Shown here piece after piece: positions 46,860-56,241 of a stretch of 64,000 bases of DNA; the first letter of the stretch is position 1; every line of letters starts with the position of its first letter. Under the pieces are notes generated by a model that worked only from the letters and a program-made list of their open reading frames with translations, did not search any database and had not been told where the DNA came from. Source of the stretch: Crateriforma spongiae (GTDB lineage: Bacteria > Planctomycetota > Planctomycetia > Pirellulales > Pirellulaceae); the NCBI RefSeq assembly GCF_012290005.1, contig NZ_JAAXMS010000001.1, positions 992,001-1,056,000 of the forward strand, written 5' to 3'. Both the position numbers and the translations under genes were made by a program.

Positions 46860-48095
46860 CTACTGAAAAACGACTTCGCCGTACAAGTCACCTTTGGCCT
46901 TTAGTGTCTTGATAATCGCAATCAGATCTTCGGTGGAAACATCCAACGCGTTGAGCGCGTCGGCCAGGTCTTTCAATTTGGCGTTGGTTTCCGGCGAAGC
47001 GTCTTGACCGATTTCCACGAATTCAGGTCCGCCGGCTTCGATTCGCAAATTGCGATGGGTCACCAGGACCGGCGCAATTTCCACGTCTTTGCCGATAACC
47101 ACGATGCCATCGGATTCATTGATCACGACGCGGTTGGATTTGGACTGTAGATGGATGGTGGTGTCCAGCAACAGGGAGATGAAACGCACGGGACTAGCGC
47201 GATCCAGTTCCGGAATTTCAACTTCGATGTGCAGCTGATCGATCGCGCGGGCGGTCGAAAGGTTGCTGCTGAGTCGTGCCGATCCGGGGGTTAGGTTGGA
47301 TCCGTTTGCCAATCCACCCCGCGATGCCGTAGCGGAATCGCCTGCGATGATCGCCATGTAATTGTTGATTTCGTCTTCGACCCGTTGGGCAGTGATGAAG
47401 TCGGCAAAGTCCTGATCCAGAATCAATGTGATCCGCCCGTCGGTATGGAAGTTCGCCTTGATGGTGGATTCCATCTTGGCACCGCCTTCGACGGTCGCCA
47501 CGGTCGCCGGCCCGTCAGGCGACACTCGCAATTGGCCCTGTGCCAGGGCATACACATTCCGGTCATCGGTTCGCGGCCCCAGCATGGGCGTGGTCAACAG
47601 CCGACCGCCTTCCAGGCTTTTGGCGCTGATGGCACTGACCGATACGTCCAGCAAATCACCTTGCTGGGCACCCACGGCGGGGACGACCGCAGTCACAACG
47701 ACCATCGCCACGTTCTTGGCATCGGCAACATCGTCCAGGTTCAATTGCCCCGTCGTGTCACTGGAAACGGGACCACCCATCAATTGCATGGCTCGAGCCA
47801 AGGCGCGCGAGGTTGTCGCAGCGTCACCGTCACCGGTACCCCGCAATCCGACCACCAGCCCCAGGCCTTGCAGCGTGTTCGTTTCCTGGCCGCGGACACG
47901 ACAGATATCGCCCAAACGCATTCCGGCGGCGTCGCACCGGTATTCCACGGCATTGAACACCAGCGACAAAAACACCGCGATGCACCGGAGCAAAGCGGTT
48001 GGGTTGAATTGTGCTCGAGCGATCGCGTGATCGGTCGATCGATTCGGATCGGGCGACGGCACTTGGACGTCCTTGTCAGTGGGGTTGGTCTTCAT
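46860..48095 (-). CDS. flgI: Flagellar P-ring protein FlgI
   Basis: Forms the periplasmic P ring around the flagellar rod. The 411-residue protein has a 60-residue N-terminal extension containing a hydrophobic export segment (LLRCIAVFLSLVFNAV). It then has the FlgI core: RLGDICRVRGQETNTLQGLGLVVGLRGTGDG, VAMVVVTAVVPAVGAQQGDLLDV-type segments, GGRLLTTPMLGP, and the C-terminal DLIAIIKTLKAKGDLYGEVVF. The extension before the export segment may be untranslated if an internal start is used. It lies 19 bases after flgH. Confidence 0.93.
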   Translation of the reverse strand: MKTNPTDKDVQVPSPDPNRSTDHAIARAQFNPTALLRCIAVFLSLVFNAVEYRCDAAGMRLGDICRVRGQETNTLQGLGLVVGLRGTGDGDAATTSRALARAMQLMGGPVSSDTTGQLNLDDVADAKNVAMVVVTAVVPAVGAQQGDLLDVSVSAISAKSLEGGRLLTTPMLGPRTDDRNVYALAQGQLRVSPDGPATVATVEGGAKMESTIKANFHTDGRITLILDQDFADFITAQRVEDEINNYMAIIAGDSATASRGGLANGSNLTPGSARLSSNLSTARAIDQLHIEVEIPELDRASPVRFISLLLDTTIHLQSKSNRVVINESDGIVVIGKDVEIAPVLVTHRNLRIEAGGPEFVEIGQDASPETNAKLKDLADALNALDVSTEDLIAIIKTLKAKGDLYGEVVFQ

Positions 48096-48114
48096 CCAAT
48101 TCGCGTCCGTGCGA

Positions 48115-48912
48115 TCAGAAAGGCTGGAGTCGGTCGAACCACCGTGTGAACCAACCTCGTTTGTATCCGTCCCGCAATTGTCCTTGATCTTGCTTGTCGA
48201 TTTCCAGATCGATCAGGTCGCGGCTAAGCACCACGTTGTCGGGGCCCACGTCTTGGGCGCGGCAAATTCCGGATAGGGCGGTTTCCCAAAGGTTGTCGTT
48301 GACCCGAAACTTTTTGCGGGCTTCCAAGACCAGATTTCCGTTGGGCCGAATGTCGACGATGCGAGCGGCAATGTTGAAGGTTAGGGCTTCGCTGGTATCG
48401 ACGTCGGATTCCGCACGGTACTGGTTGTTCGTATTTCCCGCGACGCTGGGGTCGCCGTTGGGCTGCTCGTCGGGTTGCAACCGGCCCTGGGTCAAACGAA
48501 TCCAATCGCTCAGCACGGCGCTGTATTGGGTGATTTTGCGGCTCTCGGCGCTTCCCTCGGCCAGGACCCGAGCGATTTCGTCGACCCGGATGGTGACGAT
48601 GTCGTGGATTTGGAAAACGCGTCGTGGCAATGGCGGCGTGTATGTCCAACTGACAGCAGCCAATCCCGGATGTGGCGGCGGGGTTTGACCGTAGGGCGCA
48701 GAGATCACCGGTGCATCAGATCCGTGTGGGCCGACCACTTGGCTGTTGGACCCTTGTGACGATCCGTTGACATCATCGCCGTGAAAAAGTGAAGTCGACT
48801 GGGCCAACCCCATTGATGGCGCCGCCAGCAGGACGCTTAACACCAGTGCCAGGATCCGTAACCCGCGGTGACCGATGATCGAAGGTGCGTTTGTGTTCAT
48901 TGAATTTTGCAT
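48115..48912 (-). CDS. flgH: Flagellar L-ring protein FlgH
   Basis: Builds the outer-membrane L ring of the flagellum. The 265-residue protein has a signal peptide (LRILALVLSVLLAAPSMGLAQ) but no lipobox Cys, unlike enterobacterial FlgH. The core includes IHDIVTIRVDEIARVLAEG, FNIAARIVDIRPNGNLVLEARK (FlgH family block), and ETALSGICRAQDVGPDNVVLS. Its start overlaps the flgA stop (TAATG). A Gly/Ser/Pro-rich linker (45-85) is added before the core. Confidence 0.92.
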   Translation of the reverse strand: MQNSMNTNAPSIIGHRGLRILALVLSVLLAAPSMGLAQSTSLFHGDDVNGSSQGSNSQVVGPHGSDAPVISAPYGQTPPPHPGLAAVSWTYTPPLPRRVFQIHDIVTIRVDEIARVLAEGSAESRKITQYSAVLSDWIRLTQGRLQPDEQPNGDPSVAGNTNNQYRAESDVDTSEALTFNIAARIVDIRPNGNLVLEARKKFRVNDNLWETALSGICRAQDVGPDNVVLSRDLIDLEIDKQDQGQLRDGYKRGWFTRWFDRLQPF

Positions 48913-50246
48913 TAGCGCACTCTGGGGGACCGAGTCACGATTTCGGCAAGGCCGGACGCAGCGACGCGGGCGACCATTCGGCGTCTCGGTTCGGTCGTCT
49001 CGACTTCGATCAACTGTGACAAATGACCATCGTCCAGCGCTTTGGCCATCGTGGTGACGCGGACTCCGCCACCGACGACTCGCAATTCGATTTGATCACC
49101 GCGATGGATCAGCACCGGCGGCGCCACTGCCGACACCGAAAGCGGCGCGTCTTGTCGTGCCAAGCCGACGATCTCTTTCCCGATGAAGTCGTCGACGTCG
49201 GAACTGTAGTCGTCGCGTTGTTGGTCTTCCGGGACGGGAACCCAGGTTAGATCTTCCACGCGAATTCGATGGCCGCGACGAAGTGGCATCTTTGGAGCAA
49301 CGAACATGGGATGCGGCTTCAACTGAAGCACGACCTGCGCGTCGATGGGGCCATCCACTCCACGCCCGGTCACCATGATCGCACGTCGGATCGGTGTCGA
49401 TTGCTCGACAGGTTCTTGGGGCGGCAAGACGGCTTCGCGGAAACTGGTGTGCATGATTCCGCCGGCCGATTGAAGTTGCGTGAATCCGGCCAGGTTTTCC
49501 GATGACGACGCCAACTGAACGTCATAGTGCTTCATCAGCTCGGGGTTTTGTCGCTGAACCGACATCCGGATCCAAGATTCCAGTCGCGATACGACGTGTG
49601 GCGAAGGCGGATCCGCCACAGGCATGGCGGCGGGTACCGACGTGTTGCCCGACGGTCGAACAGCGGATTCGGTTGATGTTGGTGAAGTCGAAAGCGTCGG
49701 GCTCGATTCGTTTGGTGCGGACACCTTTTGCACGGAAGATCGCCTCGGTGCGGGACGGTCACCCAATCGTTGCAGCGGAGACGGTCCGGCAAGGCTTTGC
49801 CGTGGCGGATGCTGTTTTCGCAACGAGACTTCGATCATGTCCGGGCCGATCCATTCGATCGGTTGTTCGGTGCCCTCGGATCTTGCGACCGCCTGCGCCA
49901 AACGGTCGCGTTCGATCCTTGCACGGCCCTGGCCGACGGGAATGAGACCAATGATGCCGCCCCGAAGCCGCGTCCAGACGTCCGTGGGGACTCCGATCGG
50001 TTCGGCAACGTCGCCCAATCGGATGACGGTCGTTTCCAGATTCGTGCGACCAACACAGCGGAAACGCCAAAGCGATTTGACGGGTTCATCGTTCAGTGCC
50101 GATGTCGACGGTGCTGATGGAGGTTCCTGTGCGAAGCAATCGATCGACGAAGGATTCCAGTACCATCCAACCAGCAGCGCAGCAAACAACGTCGATCGAG
50201 CGATCGACGTGCGTTGACAACGGTTTGCGGCGTCCGCCTGGTTCAC
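48912..50246 (-). CDS. flgA: FlgA-like P-ring chaperone with long insertion
   Basis: A periplasmic chaperone for P-ring assembly. The 444-residue product is about twice the usual FlgA length. It has an N-terminal export segment, a first domain (about 60-150; ETTVIRLGDVAEPIG), a Pro/Ser/Thr-rich disordered insertion (about 150-225), and a C-terminal SAF/FlgA core. The core has MPLRRGHRIRVEDLTWVPVP, FIGKEIVGLARQDAPLSVSAV, PPVLIHRGDQIEL and a GLAEIVTRSPRVR end. Coupled to flgH by TAATG. Confidence 0.85.
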   Translation of the reverse strand: MNQADAANRCQRTSIARSTLFAALLVGWYWNPSSIDCFAQEPPSAPSTSALNDEPVKSLWRFRCVGRTNLETTVIRLGDVAEPIGVPTDVWTRLRGGIIGLIPVGQGRARIERDRLAQAVARSEGTEQPIEWIGPDMIEVSLRKQHPPRQSLAGPSPLQRLGDRPAPRRSSVQKVSAPNESSPTLSTSPTSTESAVRPSGNTSVPAAMPVADPPSPHVVSRLESWIRMSVQRQNPELMKHYDVQLASSSENLAGFTQLQSAGGIMHTSFREAVLPPQEPVEQSTPIRRAIMVTGRGVDGPIDAQVVLQLKPHPMFVAPKMPLRRGHRIRVEDLTWVPVPEDQQRDDYSSDVDDFIGKEIVGLARQDAPLSVSAVAPPVLIHRGDQIELRVVGGGVRVTTMAKALDDGHLSQLIEVETTEPRRRMVARVAASGLAEIVTRSPRVR

Positions 50247-50333
50247 GGTGTTCCTTTGCGAAGGGTTGAGTGGGGGGCTGATTCGGCGTCTGAGTATGGA
50301 TGCCGGATCGCGACCCGCTAACGATCAAACGGG

Positions 50334-51140
50334 TTAGAACCGACGCAGGTTGGAGATGTTCTGCATCACTTGGTCGCCGGCTTGAACTGCTTGGCTGTTC
50401 ATCTCGAACGCGCGTTGCGTGGTGATCAGATCGATCAGTTCCTGGACGGGTTCGACGTTGGATGCTTCCAAGTTGCCCTGTCGCAGCAATCCCAATCCGT
50501 CGACTCCCGGATTACTGACCTGTTCAGGTCCCGACGCGTCCGTCGCTTCGTACATATTTTCGCCAACCTTTAGCAATCCATCGGGGTTGATGAATTGGGA
50601 CATTTGAATTTGCCCCTGGACGGCCAGTTCGGTCACGCCCGGTTGTCGAACCATGACTTCGCCATTGGTATTGATCACGATCTTCGTGGCGTCCGGCGGG
50701 ATGTTGACCGGCGGATCCAACAGGCGACCGGTTTGAGCCGAACCGATCACCAGGTTTCCGTCGGCATTGATGTCCAGGTTGCCCGCCCGTGTGTACATCG
50801 GCTGTTGGCTGGACGGATCAAGCACACGCAAGAATCCGTCGCCTTGGATTGCGATGTCCAATTCACGACCGGTTTGTTGCAGCGTGCCCTGGCGATGATC
50901 GGTCTGGGTGCTGGTCACGCGAACGCCCAAGCCGACTTGTGTTCCCACGGCTGTTGGCGTTTGTGTGGCGTCACGAACCCCCGGATAAACTTCCGTTCGG
51001 TACAGCAAGTCTTCGAAATTGGCGCGGTCTTTCTTGAAGCCGGTCGTGTTAACGTTGGCCAAGTTGTTGGCGATCACGTCCAACTTGGTTTCCATCGCTT
51101 CCATGCCGGTCGCGGCGGTGTACAGCGTTTGAACACTCAT
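50334..51140 (-). CDS. flgG: Flagellar distal rod protein FlgG
   Basis: Forms the distal rod. The 268-residue protein starts MSVQTLYTAATGMEAMETKLDVIANN and continues LANVNTTGFKKDRANFEDLLY, the N-terminal signature of rod/hook proteins. The C-terminal coiled-coil half is VQELIDLITTQRAFEMNSQAV followed by QAGDQVMQNI. Length and motifs match FlgG rather than FlgE. It is 71 bases downstream of the flgF-like gene. Confidence 0.95.
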   Translation of the reverse strand: MSVQTLYTAATGMEAMETKLDVIANNLANVNTTGFKKDRANFEDLLYRTEVYPGVRDATQTPTAVGTQVGLGVRVTSTQTDHRQGTLQQTGRELDIAIQGDGFLRVLDPSSQQPMYTRAGNLDINADGNLVIGSAQTGRLLDPPVNIPPDATKIVINTNGEVMVRQPGVTELAVQGQIQMSQFINPDGLLKVGENMYEATDASGPEQVSNPGVDGLGLLRQGNLEASNVEPVQELIDLITTQRAFEMNSQAVQAGDQVMQNISNLRRF

Positions 51141-51211
51141 GTTTGGTTTTCCGTTGACGCGGCAGATTGACGAAGTGAATTACGAACGGGTTCGTGGCGG
51201 CAAGGCCACGA

Positions 51212-51961
51212 CTACTGCAGCAGACGACCGACGAGTGACCCCATCAGGTTGTCTTGGTTTTTGATCATTTGGACGTTGGCTTCGTAGACGCGGCTGGTCT
51301 CGATCAATTCCATCATGGCGGTGGTGGGCCGGACGGATGATTTTTCCAGCGAACCCGCTACTACGTCGCGTTCTTGCGGGGACACAAGGTCAAACGACTT
51401 GGTCGGCTTGAACAGGTTGCCGCCCAGATGCTCCAAATCACCCAGCTGTTTGGGTTTGGCCAGCATCAGCGACCAACGATTGTTGCCCTGGATCAGTGTC
51501 CCCTGAGGACCCACATCGAACGGTCGATCGGACTGTAATTGGATCGGGCTGCCGTCGGACGCAAGCACTTGGTGTCCGTTTTGGGTGACCAAGTAGCCGC
51601 GGGAATCCAGCACGAATTCGCCGGCACGCGTCATCATTTGTTCTTCGCCATGTTGGATGACAAAGAAGGCTTCGCGGTCGTGGATCGCAAAGTCGGTTTT
51701 TCGGCCGGTGACCTGGATCGGTCCGACATCAAAGGCCGTTTGCGTGGGCTGGATTGTGACTCCGCCGCCCAAATCGTCGGCCCCACTCAAGCCTTCGCTG
51801 ACTTCGCCACGCTCGATCAATTCCGCGAATCGGGCCTGAAGGATGGTTTCTTGAGGCTTAAAGCCGGGCGTTTCCACGTTGGCCAAATTGTGGCTCAGCG
51901 TGCGCAGACGCTGATCCTGGGCATGCGCGCCGGCGGCAGAGAGGTAAAGGCCGTAGGGCAT
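51212..51961 (-). CDS. flgF: Flagellar basal-body rod protein FlgF-like
   Basis: A proximal-rod family protein of 249 residues. The N-terminus has MPYGLYLSAAGAHAQDQRLRTLSHN and LANVETPGFKPQET. The C-terminus has MMELIETSRVYEANVQMIKN and QDNLMGSLVGRLL, the paired helices that pack in the rod. Position immediately upstream of flgG supports FlgF. It is the first gene of the flgF-G-A-H-I-J-N operon on the minus strand. Confidence 0.85.
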   Translation of the reverse strand: MPYGLYLSAAGAHAQDQRLRTLSHNLANVETPGFKPQETILQARFAELIERGEVSEGLSGADDLGGGVTIQPTQTAFDVGPIQVTGRKTDFAIHDREAFFVIQHGEEQMMTRAGEFVLDSRGYLVTQNGHQVLASDGSPIQLQSDRPFDVGPQGTLIQGNNRWSLMLAKPKQLGDLEHLGGNLFKPTKSFDLVSPQERDVVAGSLEKSSVRPTTAMMELIETSRVYEANVQMIKNQDNLMGSLVGRLLQ

Positions 51962-52470
51962 GAGAAACTAAGTGGCTTCGAACTTGGCGTGTGACCGAAT
52001 CACCAGGGGCGATTCACCGGTTTGGAATCAAATCAACCAGCGCGTCACGTCGGACTTGAGCAAATCTTCACCGCAGGTAAGAAATTTTCGATTCCCCTGG
52101 CAAGGGCGAATCAGTGTTGGACGAGTGTTTGCAAGTTCTTCGGAGAGATGCGAAAACACACGAAACGTTCGTGTCGGCGCGGTTTCGGTGCCAACGGCAG
52201 CGTTTGGCGGCTCTTCGACGGGCTCTCGCGCCCCGAATCGTCGTGAAACTGGCCTAAAGAGATGGCCTGGTTTGGTCACATTCGAACCAAGGCGACGCTT
52301 GGAGTTTGCGTCGGCAACCGTCGTGTCGTGAAATCACGCAGAAGGCGTTTCACAGAACCGGCGGTGACGTGCTGGGGCAATCGATCGCTGACCAGACTTT
52401 GACGCATGAAACGACAACCGCTGGCAAAAGTGCACTGAGCCCACACGACGGAAGGAACAAACGAGAGGCG
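51962..52470. other. Divergent spacer between the flagellar operon and the voltage-sensor-like gene
   Basis: About 510 bases with no credible gene. I looked for a sigma-54 (GG-N10-GC) or sigma-28-type flagellar promoter upstream of flgF and found none convincing. The plus-strand end holds GAAGGA (52451-52456) and GAGAGG (52463-52468) before the next start codon. Confidence 0.5.
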
Positions 52471-53574
52471 ATGACGATGCTATCCGCAGCAACTCGAATC
52501 ACGATCGCTCGGATAACGGCACCGCTGTTCTTCTGGTTGTCGCTGGCGTTTTTGGTCGGACAAGCTTGCTTGGTCGTGCTGTGGGTGGACGTGCCCAACT
52601 TGCGCGAATCTGCCTTGGTCGCTTTGGAAGAAGTCGATCCGGAACAGGAATTGAATCTTGCCGACATCGGTCAAGCACGCGCGATCGGCTTGGGATTGGA
52701 TCCGCAGACGCAAAGGGAAGAACTTGCAACGCAGCATCGCGTCGTGACGTTGCTGTTGTTGATCTGGCCGTTGATCATCGCCGAGTCGGCGTTCCACTGG
52801 CTGACTCGTTCCTGGTCGCGGGCGAACCGCTGGTTTCATTTTTACGGCTTCCTTTTCTGCTTGTGTCCGTCATTGCGTTTGTGCGCACGCAGCGTCGAAA
52901 TGGATCGCCGATTGTGGTTGCCGGGCCTTGGGTGGCGACGCAGCGACAAGCGACTGCGTCGACGACTGGAACGCACCTTCAGCTTGCCGATGATTGCGAT
53001 CGCATTGTTGATCTTGCCCGTGCTGGCGATCGAATTCTTTTTCAAAACCCAAGTCGTGCAGCACGAATGGTTGCGTTTCGCTCTGCATGTATCGACCGGC
53101 GTGATCTGGTTTGCTTTCGCGCTGGAGTTCATTCTGATGGTCAGCGTGGCGGAGAAGAAGTTCGATTACATCCGCACCAACTGGATCGACTTGGCGATCA
53201 TCTTGCTGCCGTTGCTTTCGTTTCTTCGTTCGCTTTCGCTGGTCCGCAGCACCAAGGTGGCGAAGTTGTTGCGGGTGTCCAAGTTGACTCGTTTGGCCAG
53301 CATGTATCGCATGCGTGCCACAGCGGTCAAAGCCCTGCGGGCATTGATTTTGTGGGATGTCTTGGAGCGACTGTTGCGGCCGGATCCGGAAAAGCAACTT
53401 CAAAAGCTGAAAGAGGATCTGAATCAGCGTGAGCTGGAAATTCGCATTTTGAAACGAGAGATCTATCGGGCGGAACGCAAGCTTCGACGCGACGTTGGTG
53501 ATAGCGAGCCGGTAATGACCGGGGCCGACATCGCGGTTGCCTCGGATACGACTCTGGCTTCCGACGAAGTGTGA
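52471..53574 (+). CDS. Pore-less voltage-sensor-like membrane protein with C-terminal coiled coil
   Basis: A 367-residue membrane protein. Two N-terminal hydrophobic helices (about 13-36 and 90-111) precede an S1-S4 unit like that of voltage-gated cation channels. S1 is about 169-191 (MIAIALLILPVLAIEFFF). S2 is about 201-226 (VIWFAFALEFILMVSVA). S3 is about 236-252, with NWIDLAIILLPLL matching the N-x-x-D-x-x-A-I-L-P channel pattern. S4 has Arg/Lys at 253, 259, 262, 265, 268, 271 and 274, every third residue except Ser256. No pore helix, selectivity filter or further membrane segment follows. Instead residues about 305-345 form a charged coiled coil. This resembles proton-channel (Hv1) or sensor-only architecture. 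The start is ATG 52471, with GAGAGG upstream; ATG 52477 is possible. Confidence 0.75.
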   Translation: MTMLSAATRITIARITAPLFFWLSLAFLVGQACLVVLWVDVPNLRESALVALEEVDPEQELNLADIGQARAIGLGLDPQTQREELATQHRVVTLLLLIWPLIIAESAFHWLTRSWSRANRWFHFYGFLFCLCPSLRLCARSVEMDRRLWLPGLGWRRSDKRLRRRLERTFSLPMIAIALLILPVLAIEFFFKTQVVQHEWLRFALHVSTGVIWFAFALEFILMVSVAEKKFDYIRTNWIDLAIILLPLLSFLRSLSLVRSTKVAKLLRVSKLTRLASMYRMRATAVKALRALILWDVLERLLRPDPEKQLQKLKEDLNQRELEIRILKREIYRAERKLRRDVGDSEPVMTGADIAVASDTTLASDEV

Positions 53575-53670
53575 CGTTTTGACTCACTGCTGGACTGTTG
53601 TTGATTGTCGACATTCGTGTGGCCATGGGGACCATCTTGGTTCAAGTTGTCACCGGCGAATGGAATGGTC

Positions 53671-56241
53671 ATGCGGATTCAACGAGGTTTGGTCGCTGCG
53701 CGAAAACGGTTTCGATTATCTGCGTTGACGGTCGCCGCACTGTGCTGCCTTGGCGTATCGTGCCCGTCAGCAAAAGCGCAGCCGGGCGCTGGTGATCTGA
53801 TTCGAACCGGAAATCTGGTCCAAGACCTCAGCGGCTATCGCTGGAAGCTGAAGCGAATGCATCCGGGTCAGGGTGTGGTTCAGGGGCTGCACGAATTGCC
53901 ACCCGCTGATATCGAAACCCACGTGTGGATTTCTGGCCGCGTTCCCGGGGACGTCTATACCGACCTTTGGAAAGCCGGCGTTTTGGAAGATCCCTACTGG
54001 GGACGCAATAGCACCAAGGCGCAATGGGTCATGTTGGATGAGTGGTGGTATTCGCTGCAATTCGATGTCGGCGAAACACTGAAAGACAAAGTCGTGCGAC
54101 TGGAATTCGACGGGGTGGATTATGCATGTGACGTCTGGCTGAACGGGAACAAGCTTGGCCGTCACGAAGGGATGTTCAGCCCGTTTGCATTTGACGTCAC
54201 GGACTTCGTCAACAGCGGCCCTCGATGGGACAAGGGCCGAAATATCCTGATGGTCAAGCTGGATCCACCACCGCAGGTCAATCACAAGGTGGCAGGGTTG
54301 AAGACGCCTTGGTTTGGTGACTATTGGCGTGATCTGGTGCCTTTCGGGATTTGGCGTCCGGTTCGGTTGGTGGCGTCAGGCAAAGTGCGGATCGACGACG
54401 TCTACGTGAAGCCCGTGGTGCGCGATGATGGTACAGCGGTGGTTAAATTCGAAGTCACCCTTGAGAACCACGCGGACCAGGCGATGGAAATCAAGATGCC
54501 CATCGCCATCGAAGGGAAAAACTTCTCATCCGAACCCGTGGCGACTGAAGTACAGACCCGAGTGGAGCCTGGTAAGCAAGTGGTGACGGCGGAGGTCGAT
54601 GTCGCCGATCCGCAACTTTGGTGGCCTTGGGATCTGGGCAAACCCAATCTGTACAACGCAACGATCGAAGTGCGCCTTGGAGATGTCGTCCATCACCAAC
54701 AAACCGAGACCTTTGGAATTCGCCAAATCAAAATGGAATGGAATCCGGGTTTTGGTCCGGATGAGGTTAGCTTTCCTCGCACGGTGATGCTCAACGGCAA
54801 GCGGCATTTCATTCGTTCGGCATGTTGGGGCGGGCCGCCGGACATCTTTGTGGGGCGAACGTCGCCGGATGAATACAAGACGCTGATCGATTTAGCCAAA
54901 GCGGCCAACATGAACAACATCCGGATCTTTGGGTGGCATCCGCCTGAGATTCCTGAGTTCTATCAGTACTGCGATGAAGCGGGCCTGACCGTCTGGCAGG
55001 ACGTCATTCCCCTGGGGACGGCGAATATTTCTCAGGAGCCATCGTTCGTTGAGCGGATCTACCGCGAAGCCGTGACAGTCATCAAAGAACGCCGCAATCA
55101 TCCGTGTTTGATTTTGATCGAAGGTGGTGAGGAGGCCTTTCTGCGAGCCGCTGATCCGGTGTTTACGAAAGGATTCCTTGAAGAACTTGGTCGACGTTTA
55201 CAACAGCACGTCGATTTGCCCTACGTGCCAGATTCCCCGCTGACCTGTGCGATCGCGCAAAGCGTCGGTTACAAGCCGAAAGAGGCGGTGCACGCGTTGG
55301 CCTATTTCTATTCGATGGGCCGATGGCTGATGGAGGACTGGTACCGATCGCTGGACTTCCCCATCGTTCCCGAGTTGGCGATCACATCGGTTCCGTCGGT
55401 TGAAAGCCTGAAGCGGTTCATTCCGCCGGATGAGCTTTGGCCTCCCGGGCCGAGTTGGGGACATCACTGGGCCGATTTGGACCGTCTGCGGATGCAGAAC
55501 TTCGATTGCTTCGGCGACGAGCGAACCGGATCGTTGGAAGAATTTGTCAACGCAACGCAGGACGCACAGGGCACGATCTTTCAATTGGCCGTTGAGCATT
55601 TTCGTCGGGCCAAACCTAGATGCAGCGGAGTCTCGCTGTGTCACTTCATTACGTATTGGCCGGACATGAAATGGGGGATCGTTGATGCGTATCAAGAACC
55701 CAAACGTTCGTACGAGTATGTCAAACGGGCGTACCAACCGTTGCTGGTCAGTCTGGATTTTGAACGACGGCGATGGAAACCCGGCGAGTCATTGGATGCC
55801 AAGGTTTGGTTGATCAATGACACCTATCAATCGCATCAGGATTGTGTGGTTCGGTTGAACATCAAAAATTCCGATGGAGCGGAGTTGGCGGTCAATGAAT
55901 TTGATGTCGCTTCGGTGGACGAAGACAGTTCGCTCGCGATCGGCGAACTGAAGTGGCAGGTCGATGCGACGGTCGAGGACTCGTTTAACGTGTCGCTGTC
56001 TTTGCTGGATGCTGACGGAGCTGTGCTTTCCAGCAATCAATACCAGTTGCTAATCGGCGATCAGGAACAGGCACGTCTGCGGATGGCGGCGATGGGTAAA
56101 ACAAGATCCCAAGCGAACCTAAAGTACACCTACGGCAACTACTACCGCTTCTTCCCGTCGATGATCGGCGAAGGGGATGCATCCTCGGACTCTGCCGATG
56201 GCGTTCCTCGCGCCGGAGCGTTTTCAAAGGATCAGCCATAG
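53671..56241 (+). CDS. Exported GH2-family beta-mannosidase-like enzyme
   Basis: An 856-residue glycoside hydrolase with signal peptide (LTVAALCCLGVSCPSAKAQ). The N-terminal jelly-roll sugar-binding domain has VPGDVYTDLWKAGVLEDPYWG and WYSLQFDVG. An Ig-like domain and a TIM barrel follow; WWPWDLGKPNLYN is typical of the beta-mannosidase clade. The expected acid/base region reads LIEGGEE (484-488) where W-S-G-N-N-E is usual. The nucleophile region is VPELAITSVPS with E568. Both glutamates can be aligned, but the Asn before the acid/base is replaced. Start choice lies between ATG 53671 and 53665. A terminator between convergent genes follows. Confidence 0.85.
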   Translation: MRIQRGLVAARKRFRLSALTVAALCCLGVSCPSAKAQPGAGDLIRTGNLVQDLSGYRWKLKRMHPGQGVVQGLHELPPADIETHVWISGRVPGDVYTDLWKAGVLEDPYWGRNSTKAQWVMLDEWWYSLQFDVGETLKDKVVRLEFDGVDYACDVWLNGNKLGRHEGMFSPFAFDVTDFVNSGPRWDKGRNILMVKLDPPPQVNHKVAGLKTPWFGDYWRDLVPFGIWRPVRLVASGKVRIDDVYVKPVVRDDGTAVVKFEVTLENHADQAMEIKMPIAIEGKNFSSEPVATEVQTRVEPGKQVVTAEVDVADPQLWWPWDLGKPNLYNATIEVRLGDVVHHQQTETFGIRQIKMEWNPGFGPDEVSFPRTVMLNGKRHFIRSACWGGPPDIFVGRTSPDEYKTLIDLAKAANMNNIRIFGWHPPEIPEFYQYCDEAGLTVWQDVIPLGTANISQEPSFVERIYREAVTVIKERRNHPCLILIEGGEEAFLRAADPVFTKGFLEELGRRLQQHVDLPYVPDSPLTCAIAQSVGYKPKEAVHALAYFYSMGRWLMEDWYRSLDFPIVPELAITSVPSVESLKRFIPPDELWPPGPSWGHHWADLDRLRMQNFDCFGDERTGSLEEFVNATQDAQGTIFQLAVEHFRRAKPRCSGVSLCHFITYWPDMKWGIVDAYQEPKRSYEYVKRAYQPLLVSLDFERRRWKPGESLDAKVWLINDTYQSHQDCVVRLNIKNSDGAELAVNEFDVASVDEDSSLAIGELKWQVDATVEDSFNVSLSLLDADGAVLSSNQYQLLIGDQEQARLRMAAMGKTRSQANLKYTYGNYYRFFPSMIGEGDASSDSADGVPRAGAFSKDQP

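Follow-up and report, generated by a model that had tools for sequence, protein, structure and literature searches.

An open reading frame on the forward strand (52471–53574) of the Crateriforma spongiae window, that is, of the whole 64,000-nucleotide stretch of DNA that was analysed, encodes a protein of 367 amino acids, P0001, which contains voltage-sensor helices S1–S4 and no pore. Its translation and its relatives identify it as a pore-less voltage-sensor-type protein, and the sequence features described below make it rather probable that the protein is a voltage sensor whose S4 movement is relayed to a coiled coil. Homology to bacterial Kv channels, charge-transfer residues, an S4 charge ladder, the absence of a pore, heptads and an internal similarity can all be read from the sequences of the family. 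A GAGAGG motif (52463–52468, +), read directly just 5′ of the ATG, is a likely ribosome-binding site.

Relation of S1–S4 to the sensors of bacterial Kv channels

The sole Pfam match of P0001 was Ion_trans (PF00520), found over S1–S4 with an E-value of 1.4e-4. The score of 21.6 bits is under the curated cut-off of 25 bits, and positions 4–130 of the 241 are matched in a model that spans sensor and pore. Ion_trans was found at an E-value of 0.1 or better in 15 of 60 homologues. An NCBIfam search with P0001 returned one match at chance level, and a single-sequence search of PDB returned one weak match, to a NaChBac-Nav1.7 chimera (E 0.032).

For family-wide comparisons 160 unique proteins were extracted, of which 149 covered the model sufficiently; filtering at 88% identity left 127. 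A strict motif was failed by 39 of the 160 extracted proteins; those of them within the 127 were measured via alignment columns. When a 60-sequence family profile was compared by hhalign with a profile of planctomycete Kv channels (26 of 31 channels, after three duplicates and two divergent ones were dropped), a match with a probability of 96.0% (P 4.2e-9) was obtained over residues 161–291. Controls with the same 60-sequence profile gave 4% for the N-terminal half, 9% and 26% for reversed profiles and less than 1% for each of 10 column shuffles. The 127-sequence profile matched Kv at 95% (reversed, 10%), and the C-terminal half of ten gammaproteobacterial homologues, taken alone, at 96.6% (P 6.4e-10).

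The residues that form the gating-charge transfer site are kept throughout the family. In S2 (residues 204–226; 53080–53148) W213, F216 and E219 are invariant in 127/127 homologues, and in S3 (237–252; 53179–53226) position 240 has Asp in 122 homologues and Glu in the other 5, with P247 invariant. The spacing between F216 and W238 is identical in all 127. S1 (171–190; 52981–53040), assigned by alignment and model, carries an invariant P183 and an outer E188 that is acidic in 112 of the 127. Profile comparison shows S1–S4 to be homologous to the sensors of bacterial Kv channels; together with the charge-transfer residues of S2 and S3 this bears out, at the level of sequence, the S1–S4 arrangement that the first-pass annotation had placed at about residues 169–274.

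The likeness to the Kv sensor domain comprises the profile homology (95–97%), the S2 FxxE motif, the S3 Asp and Lys or Arg at every third residue of S4. The P0001 family differs from Kv channels in lacking S5, pore loop and S6, in having almost no S3–S4 loop, and in possessing a longer S4 ladder, an extra N-terminal half and a coiled coil. A Kv-type channel with a TTVGYGD filter is encoded in the same genome (L112, G000:C1:771019-771687) and would be an obvious candidate for a partner of the sensor protein, or for a control.

Structure models

Two AlphaFold2 models were considered, one of P0001 built with 60 alignment rows (mean pLDDT 82.5) and one of a homologue whose S4 span has 21 residues, built with 127 rows (mean pLDDT 85.4). 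In both, S1, S2 and S3 are helical and confidently modelled, and the S4 stretch has a pLDDT of about 50–65. In the first model the S3 helix stops at residue 254 and the next long helix begins at 270; in the second the S3 helix continues into the S4 stretch and a new helix starts four residues on. Foldseek returned no match at an E-value of 0.001 for either model. Among the best 50 rows, voltage-gated-type channels accounted for 2 with the first model and 24 with the second (best E 0.65), the latter including KCNQ2, NavMs, CavAb, NavAb and a bacterial cyclic-nucleotide-regulated channel. The channel share among the rows of the second model is suggestive and is not evidence of the fold.

The S4 charge ladder

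S4 (residues 253–280; 53227–53310) carries eight Lys or Arg residues on ten triplet positions, at 253, 259, 262, 265, 268, 271 and 274 and then at R280. The seven basic positions counted earlier up to 274 stand, but the statement that Ser256 alone breaks the series does not: Ser277 is a second neutral triplet position, after which R280 resumes the ladder. The chance that eight Lys or Arg residues among 28 (253–280) all fall in that phase is about 1.4e-5.

The same regularity is seen across the family. Counted by phase, Lys or Arg occupied 515/717, 5/805 and 0/717 S4 positions in the 88 own-family homologues, 79/148, 23/169 and 1/155 in group f21, and 88/180, 2/186 and 2/181 in group f112. The span holds at least five Lys or Arg residues in 121 of the 127 homologues, and in 105 of these 121 the charges are in a single phase throughout, compared with 2 perfectly single-phase windows among 4,891 other 21-residue stretches with at least five Lys or Arg. 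The exceptions are the 16 imperfect spans among the 121 and the six of 127 that have fewer than five basic residues and were left unscored; some family members have only 3–4. Six of the ten gammaproteobacterial homologues have an unbroken every-third series of nine basic residues, counting the closing Arg. In nine of the ten the S4 span is single-phase and its length is a multiple of three; the tenth, L303, has neither property and has lost most of the ladder. The regularity of S4 exceeds chance. Homologues lacking periodic charges or carrying a fused pore had been named in the first-pass annotation as what would speak against a sensor; the outcome was mostly favourable, with 105 of 121 spans perfect and a pore pattern in 0 of 127.

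The spectrum of S4 Lys and Arg positions has a 120-degree peak in the own family, f21 and f112, and this is the period of S4; in an ordinary amphipathic helix it would be 100 degrees. The period bears directly on the alternative raised at first, that P0001 is an unrelated membrane protein whose basic amphipathic helix resembles S4 by chance. Such a protein would suit the sub-threshold Pfam match and the lack of a significant structural match. It would not be expected to match the Kv profile at 95–97% with much weaker controls, to align its S2 and S3 motifs with Kv, or to space its charges at 120 rather than 100 degrees, and we consider this explanation highly improbable.

Length variation of S4

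The distance between F251 and Y279 also varies in a regular manner. In the own family it corresponds to 12, 18, 21, 24 or 27 residues, multiples of three in 88/88 proteins, and the charges stay in one phase across several of these lengths. Lengths of 22, 25, 28, 31 and 32 are seen additionally in f21 and f112, so that the range over the whole homologue set is 12–32 residues. The TM1–TM2 loop of the same proteins follows no multiple-of-three rule. Length changes were counted by simple parsimony on a quickly built tree, for which four root states tied and the first was taken; events were named after the first leaf of a clade, and one 'f112' clade also contains an own-family row. By this count 12 of 19 changes kept to multiples of three (P 0.0074, tested against a share of one third), and so did all 6 changes in clades that carry the own-family label (P 0.0014, likewise tested); the seven changes off the rule all lie in f21 and f112. 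A strict rule that S4 changes only by threes was rejected, since it fits the own family (88/88) but only 12 of the 19 changes on the tree. Triplet steps are therefore favoured and not absolute, given the tree count and the lengths found in f21 and f112.

Variation of this extent, together with members that have 3–4 basic residues, is loose for a calibrated sensor. The spread of 12–32 residues and the low model confidence of S4 would fit a sensor fold reused as a structural or a lipid- or partner-binding membrane anchor, in which the ladder is immobile and serves salt bridges or folding. We regard such an anchor as unlikely, though the most serious competitor: Phe and Glu of the charge-transfer site do not vary, and the S4 charges hold a single phase over several own-family lengths.

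The C-terminal tail

S4 is followed by an amphipathic helix (residues 281–301; 53311–53373) that, according to model and alignment, is placed like an S4–S5 linker, and then by a heptad coiled coil (306–343; 53386–53499). No S5, selectivity filter or S6 follows, and the pore-motif pattern occurs in 0 of 127 C-terminal tails; in two of the 127 tails the 19-residue hydropathy maximum is slightly above 1.2. In the heptad repeat the hydrophobic fraction is 0.92 for one of the two core phases and 0.60 for the second, and a helix is predicted over 306–343. Both the lack of a pore after S4 and the coiled coil had been proposed from the letters alone, and both were confirmed by these data. A profile search of PDB gave 46 matches at E-values up to 10, all of them over the coiled-coil part of the profile (positions 266–339) and none to a voltage sensor. 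Pfam detected no phosphatase domain in P0001. The protein resembles Ci-VSP in coupling a pore-less sensor to a cytoplasmic part and differs from it in that this part is a coiled coil only.

Comparison with Hv1

A sensor without a pore and a coiled coil past S4 are also found in Hv1, and to this extent the Hv1-like layout described earlier holds. Close kinship with Hv1 is not supported: the profile match was 3% for the 127-sequence profile and 0.1% for the gammaproteobacterial C-terminal half, with an Hv1 profile of two sequences only. As a yardstick, the Kv and Hv1 profiles match each other at 57%. No acidic residue is present at S1 positions 170–187 in any of 60 homologues. The proton-selecting Asp of Hv1 sits in S1 (D112 in human), and because it lies at that place, the missing acid counts against Hv1. 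There is also no Trp at residues 253–282 of P0001, and the Hv1-type RxWRxxR motif is absent; in a few homologues (e.g. L030 and L032) a Trp stands near the beginning of the S4 span, outside such a motif. The S4 Trp is described as a conserved Hv feature in excerpts from a 2023 review (PMC10377628). The S4 of Hv1 carries 3 charges, compared with 8 in P0001. Membership in Hv1 was rejected, given the lack of the S1 Asp and of the S4 Trp in P0001 and the profile comparison (3% or less, against 95–97% for Kv).

Another reading is that the sensor itself leaks protons or cations under the control of voltage, Hv1-like in function though not closely related to Hv1. The missing pore, the coiled coil past S4 and the neutral S256 and S277 of the P0001 S4 would accommodate it, against which stand the absence of an S1 acid in 60/60 homologues, of a Trp in the P0001 S4 and of more than a 3% match to the Hv1 profile; we consider a leak improbable. 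Transmission of S4 movement to the coiled coil is the reading followed below. The extra N-terminal helices that had been said to set P0001 apart from Hv1 remain a difference, which we now read as a degenerate duplicate.

The N-terminal half

The N-terminal half contains TM1 (residues 16–38; 52516–52584), which is S1-like by alignment and lies in a modelled helix of residues 6–54; TM2 (91–110; 52741–52800), which is S2-like by hhalign; an S3-like helix region (117–135; 52819–52875; modelled helices 117–131 and 133–136); and a beta hairpin, WLPGLGW (147–157; 52909–52941), located by AlphaFold2 and conservation at the place where the S4 of a first repeat would be expected. When residues 5–142 were aligned with 158–300 by hhalign, a probability of 92.9% was obtained (P 3.6e-7, score 41.5). 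Reversed halves gave 0.1–0.2%, 20 block shuffles gave at most 2.6%, and the top score of 150 further block shuffles was 22.7. With circular shifts that cut the aligned stretch the score fell to 23–33 and persisted.

The alignment pairs F20 (Met in 120/127) with M174, W99 (87 Trp, 32 Tyr) with W213, E105 (119 Glu, 8 Asp) with E219, and P133 with P247. In f112 the Met-Glu-Pro spacings are 44 and 27 in both repeats (15/18 and 16/18 in the N-terminal, 17/18 and 18/18 in the C-terminal repeat). The C-terminal repeat keeps these spacings in the own family and f21, where the N-terminal one has drifted: in the own family its first spacing is longer and variable and its second is 27 in 58/88 and 21 in 21/88, and in f21 the first is 43 in 13/21 and the second 21 in 19/21. 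By hhalign the gammaproteobacterial C-terminal half matches the planctomycete N-terminal half at 92.8% (P 3.9e-7). The gammaproteobacterial N-terminal half, as a ten-sequence profile, reaches 23% against the planctomycete C-terminal half and 7% against its own, which counts against the repeat. The N-terminal half alone matches the Kv profile at 3–4%. An S4 ladder is missing from repeat 1, and in P0001 the position of this repeat that corresponds to the Phe of FxxE holds another residue. On balance the N-terminal half looks like a degenerate duplicate of S1-S2-S3, which best explains the similarity between the halves.

The stretch 137–168 is polar and strongly basic and by the positive-inside rule should be cytoplasmic; therefore, a membrane crossing by the third helix of repeat 1 is unlikely. 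As judged from its charges, helix 117–135 is probably interfacial or re-entrant. P133, R136, W149 and P151 are invariant in 127/127. Such conservation outside the sensor suggests another function and speaks for reuse of the fold as a membrane anchor.

Distribution and gene neighbourhood

Matches at an E-value of 0.001 were found in 107 of 241 own-family genomes, or in 105 of 241 without the weakly matching G005 and G245, a frequency that does not fit the description 'rare in bacteria' given in the first-pass annotation. In the class sample 96 of 397 genomes matched at 1e-15, and in the phylum sample 30 of 294 did, 17 strongly and 13 weakly. A contig search with P0001 as a single protein gave no match; with the family alignment, 136 stretches encoding relatives were obtained. 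Among 80 of these 136 that were listed, at least 10 are on contigs with Gammaproteobacteria in their titles, 7 of them Granulosicoccus or Granulosicoccaceae; the other 70 have planctomycete or unassigned titles (e.g. Rhodopirellula, Blastopirellula, Gimesia, Gemmata). Since all 10 gammaproteobacterial contigs are metagenome-assembled genomes, mis-binning is possible. Locus L159 (G542:C1:4806490-4817681) has two divergent weak matches in frames of 334 and 276 amino acids on opposite strands (E 2.4e-9 and 5.6e-8), which are possible paralogues.

Four of the 13 weak phylum matches (G300, G314, G352 and G385) are giant sensor-containing proteins. A second family with a voltage-sensor-like stretch (L140:3954-8132, L143:3543-8072, L144:3789-8147 and relatives; alignment A3) consists of planctomycete proteins of about 1,300–1,500 amino acids with a mid-protein match to the sensor half of Ion_trans only (E 1.2e-10 to 1.3e-4; above the cut-off in 2 of 3 scanned). 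No further Pfam family was found in them at an E-value of 0.05. Of 149 phylum genomes 29 encode such proteins, and none of these 29 belongs to the class of C. spongiae. The restriction of the match to the sensor half of Ion_trans is shared with P0001, and the position of the sensor midway in a large conserved protein is the difference.

Clustering of neighbours revealed no constant partner gene; like the sub-threshold Pfam score, the PDB profile search, the low-confidence S4 models and the Foldseek results, this counts against the sensor reading. In the window, a run of five flagellar basal-body-like genes (46860–51961, −; FlgI, FlgH, FlgA, FlgG, FlgF in this order, from translations) is divergent from the sensor gene. 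A flagellar link was discarded, as only the same-genus locus among 58 long loci (51 with the sensor gene) has flagellar-like neighbours. Just downstream (53605–56241, +) lies an 878-residue reading frame whose translation resembles a family-2-type glycoside hydrolase. In two Granulosicoccus-titled loci, L290 and L324, the translations of the downstream genes resemble a small regulator and cytochrome bd oxidase subunits; the bd-like neighbours are absent from the other eight gammaproteobacterial loci.

Proposed function

In the mechanism we favour, the complete C-terminal S1–S4 bundle would reside in the membrane, and upon a change in potential S4 with its eight positive charges would slide through the Phe/Glu/Asp site of S2 and S3. 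The movement would be transmitted by the helix past S4 to the cytoplasmic coiled coil, whose probable roles are to hold two copies of the protein together and to bind a partner. The N-terminal half, presumably a degenerate S1-S2-S3 copy whose S4 has been replaced by the conserved Trp-Pro hairpin, probably packs on the working sensor, perhaps at the site usually taken by a pore domain. The isolated Shaker sensor, with its pore removed, conducts protons, according to the abstract of PMC5092046; for this reason one may speculate that repeat 1 could seal the sensor in the pore domain's stead.

The best functional analogue of the P0001 family is human TMEM266, which in excerpts from PMC6392501 is described as a sensor with a coiled coil, no pore and no proton current. 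The same excerpts term it the closest relative of Hv1, predict its long C-terminal tail to be disordered and make no mention of an internal repeat; TMEM266 is eukaryotic, and the P0001 family appears to have such a repeat. The most likely function is that voltage moves S4 and that this movement is coupled to a coiled-coil dimer, in the manner of TMEM266.

According to excerpts from the 2023 review (PMC10377628), every prokaryotic voltage-sensing domain known from database searches carries a pore, and Hv1-type channels are without evidence in bacteria or archaea. A pore-less bacterial sensor is not mentioned in excerpts from another review (PMC13095418), nor in the titles and abstract openings among the matches listed from open-licence PubMed Central. 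At the sequence level the P0001 family contradicts the pore statement as worded in those excerpts of PMC10377628, and the giant A3 family probably does so too. Tentatively, and with a little more doubt than confidence, we propose that P0001 stands for a class of pore-less voltage sensors that would be the first of its kind in bacteria. Its members would consist of two tandem sensor repeats, the first of which has lost S4, would convert membrane potential into a signal of the cytoplasmic coiled coil, and would have an S4 ladder that evolves largely by threes. If voltage sensing holds true, bacteria would own a stand-alone reader of membrane potential, which would bear on the origin of Hv1 and of voltage-sensing phosphatases and would give physicists and engineers a small sensor of bacterial origin to work with.
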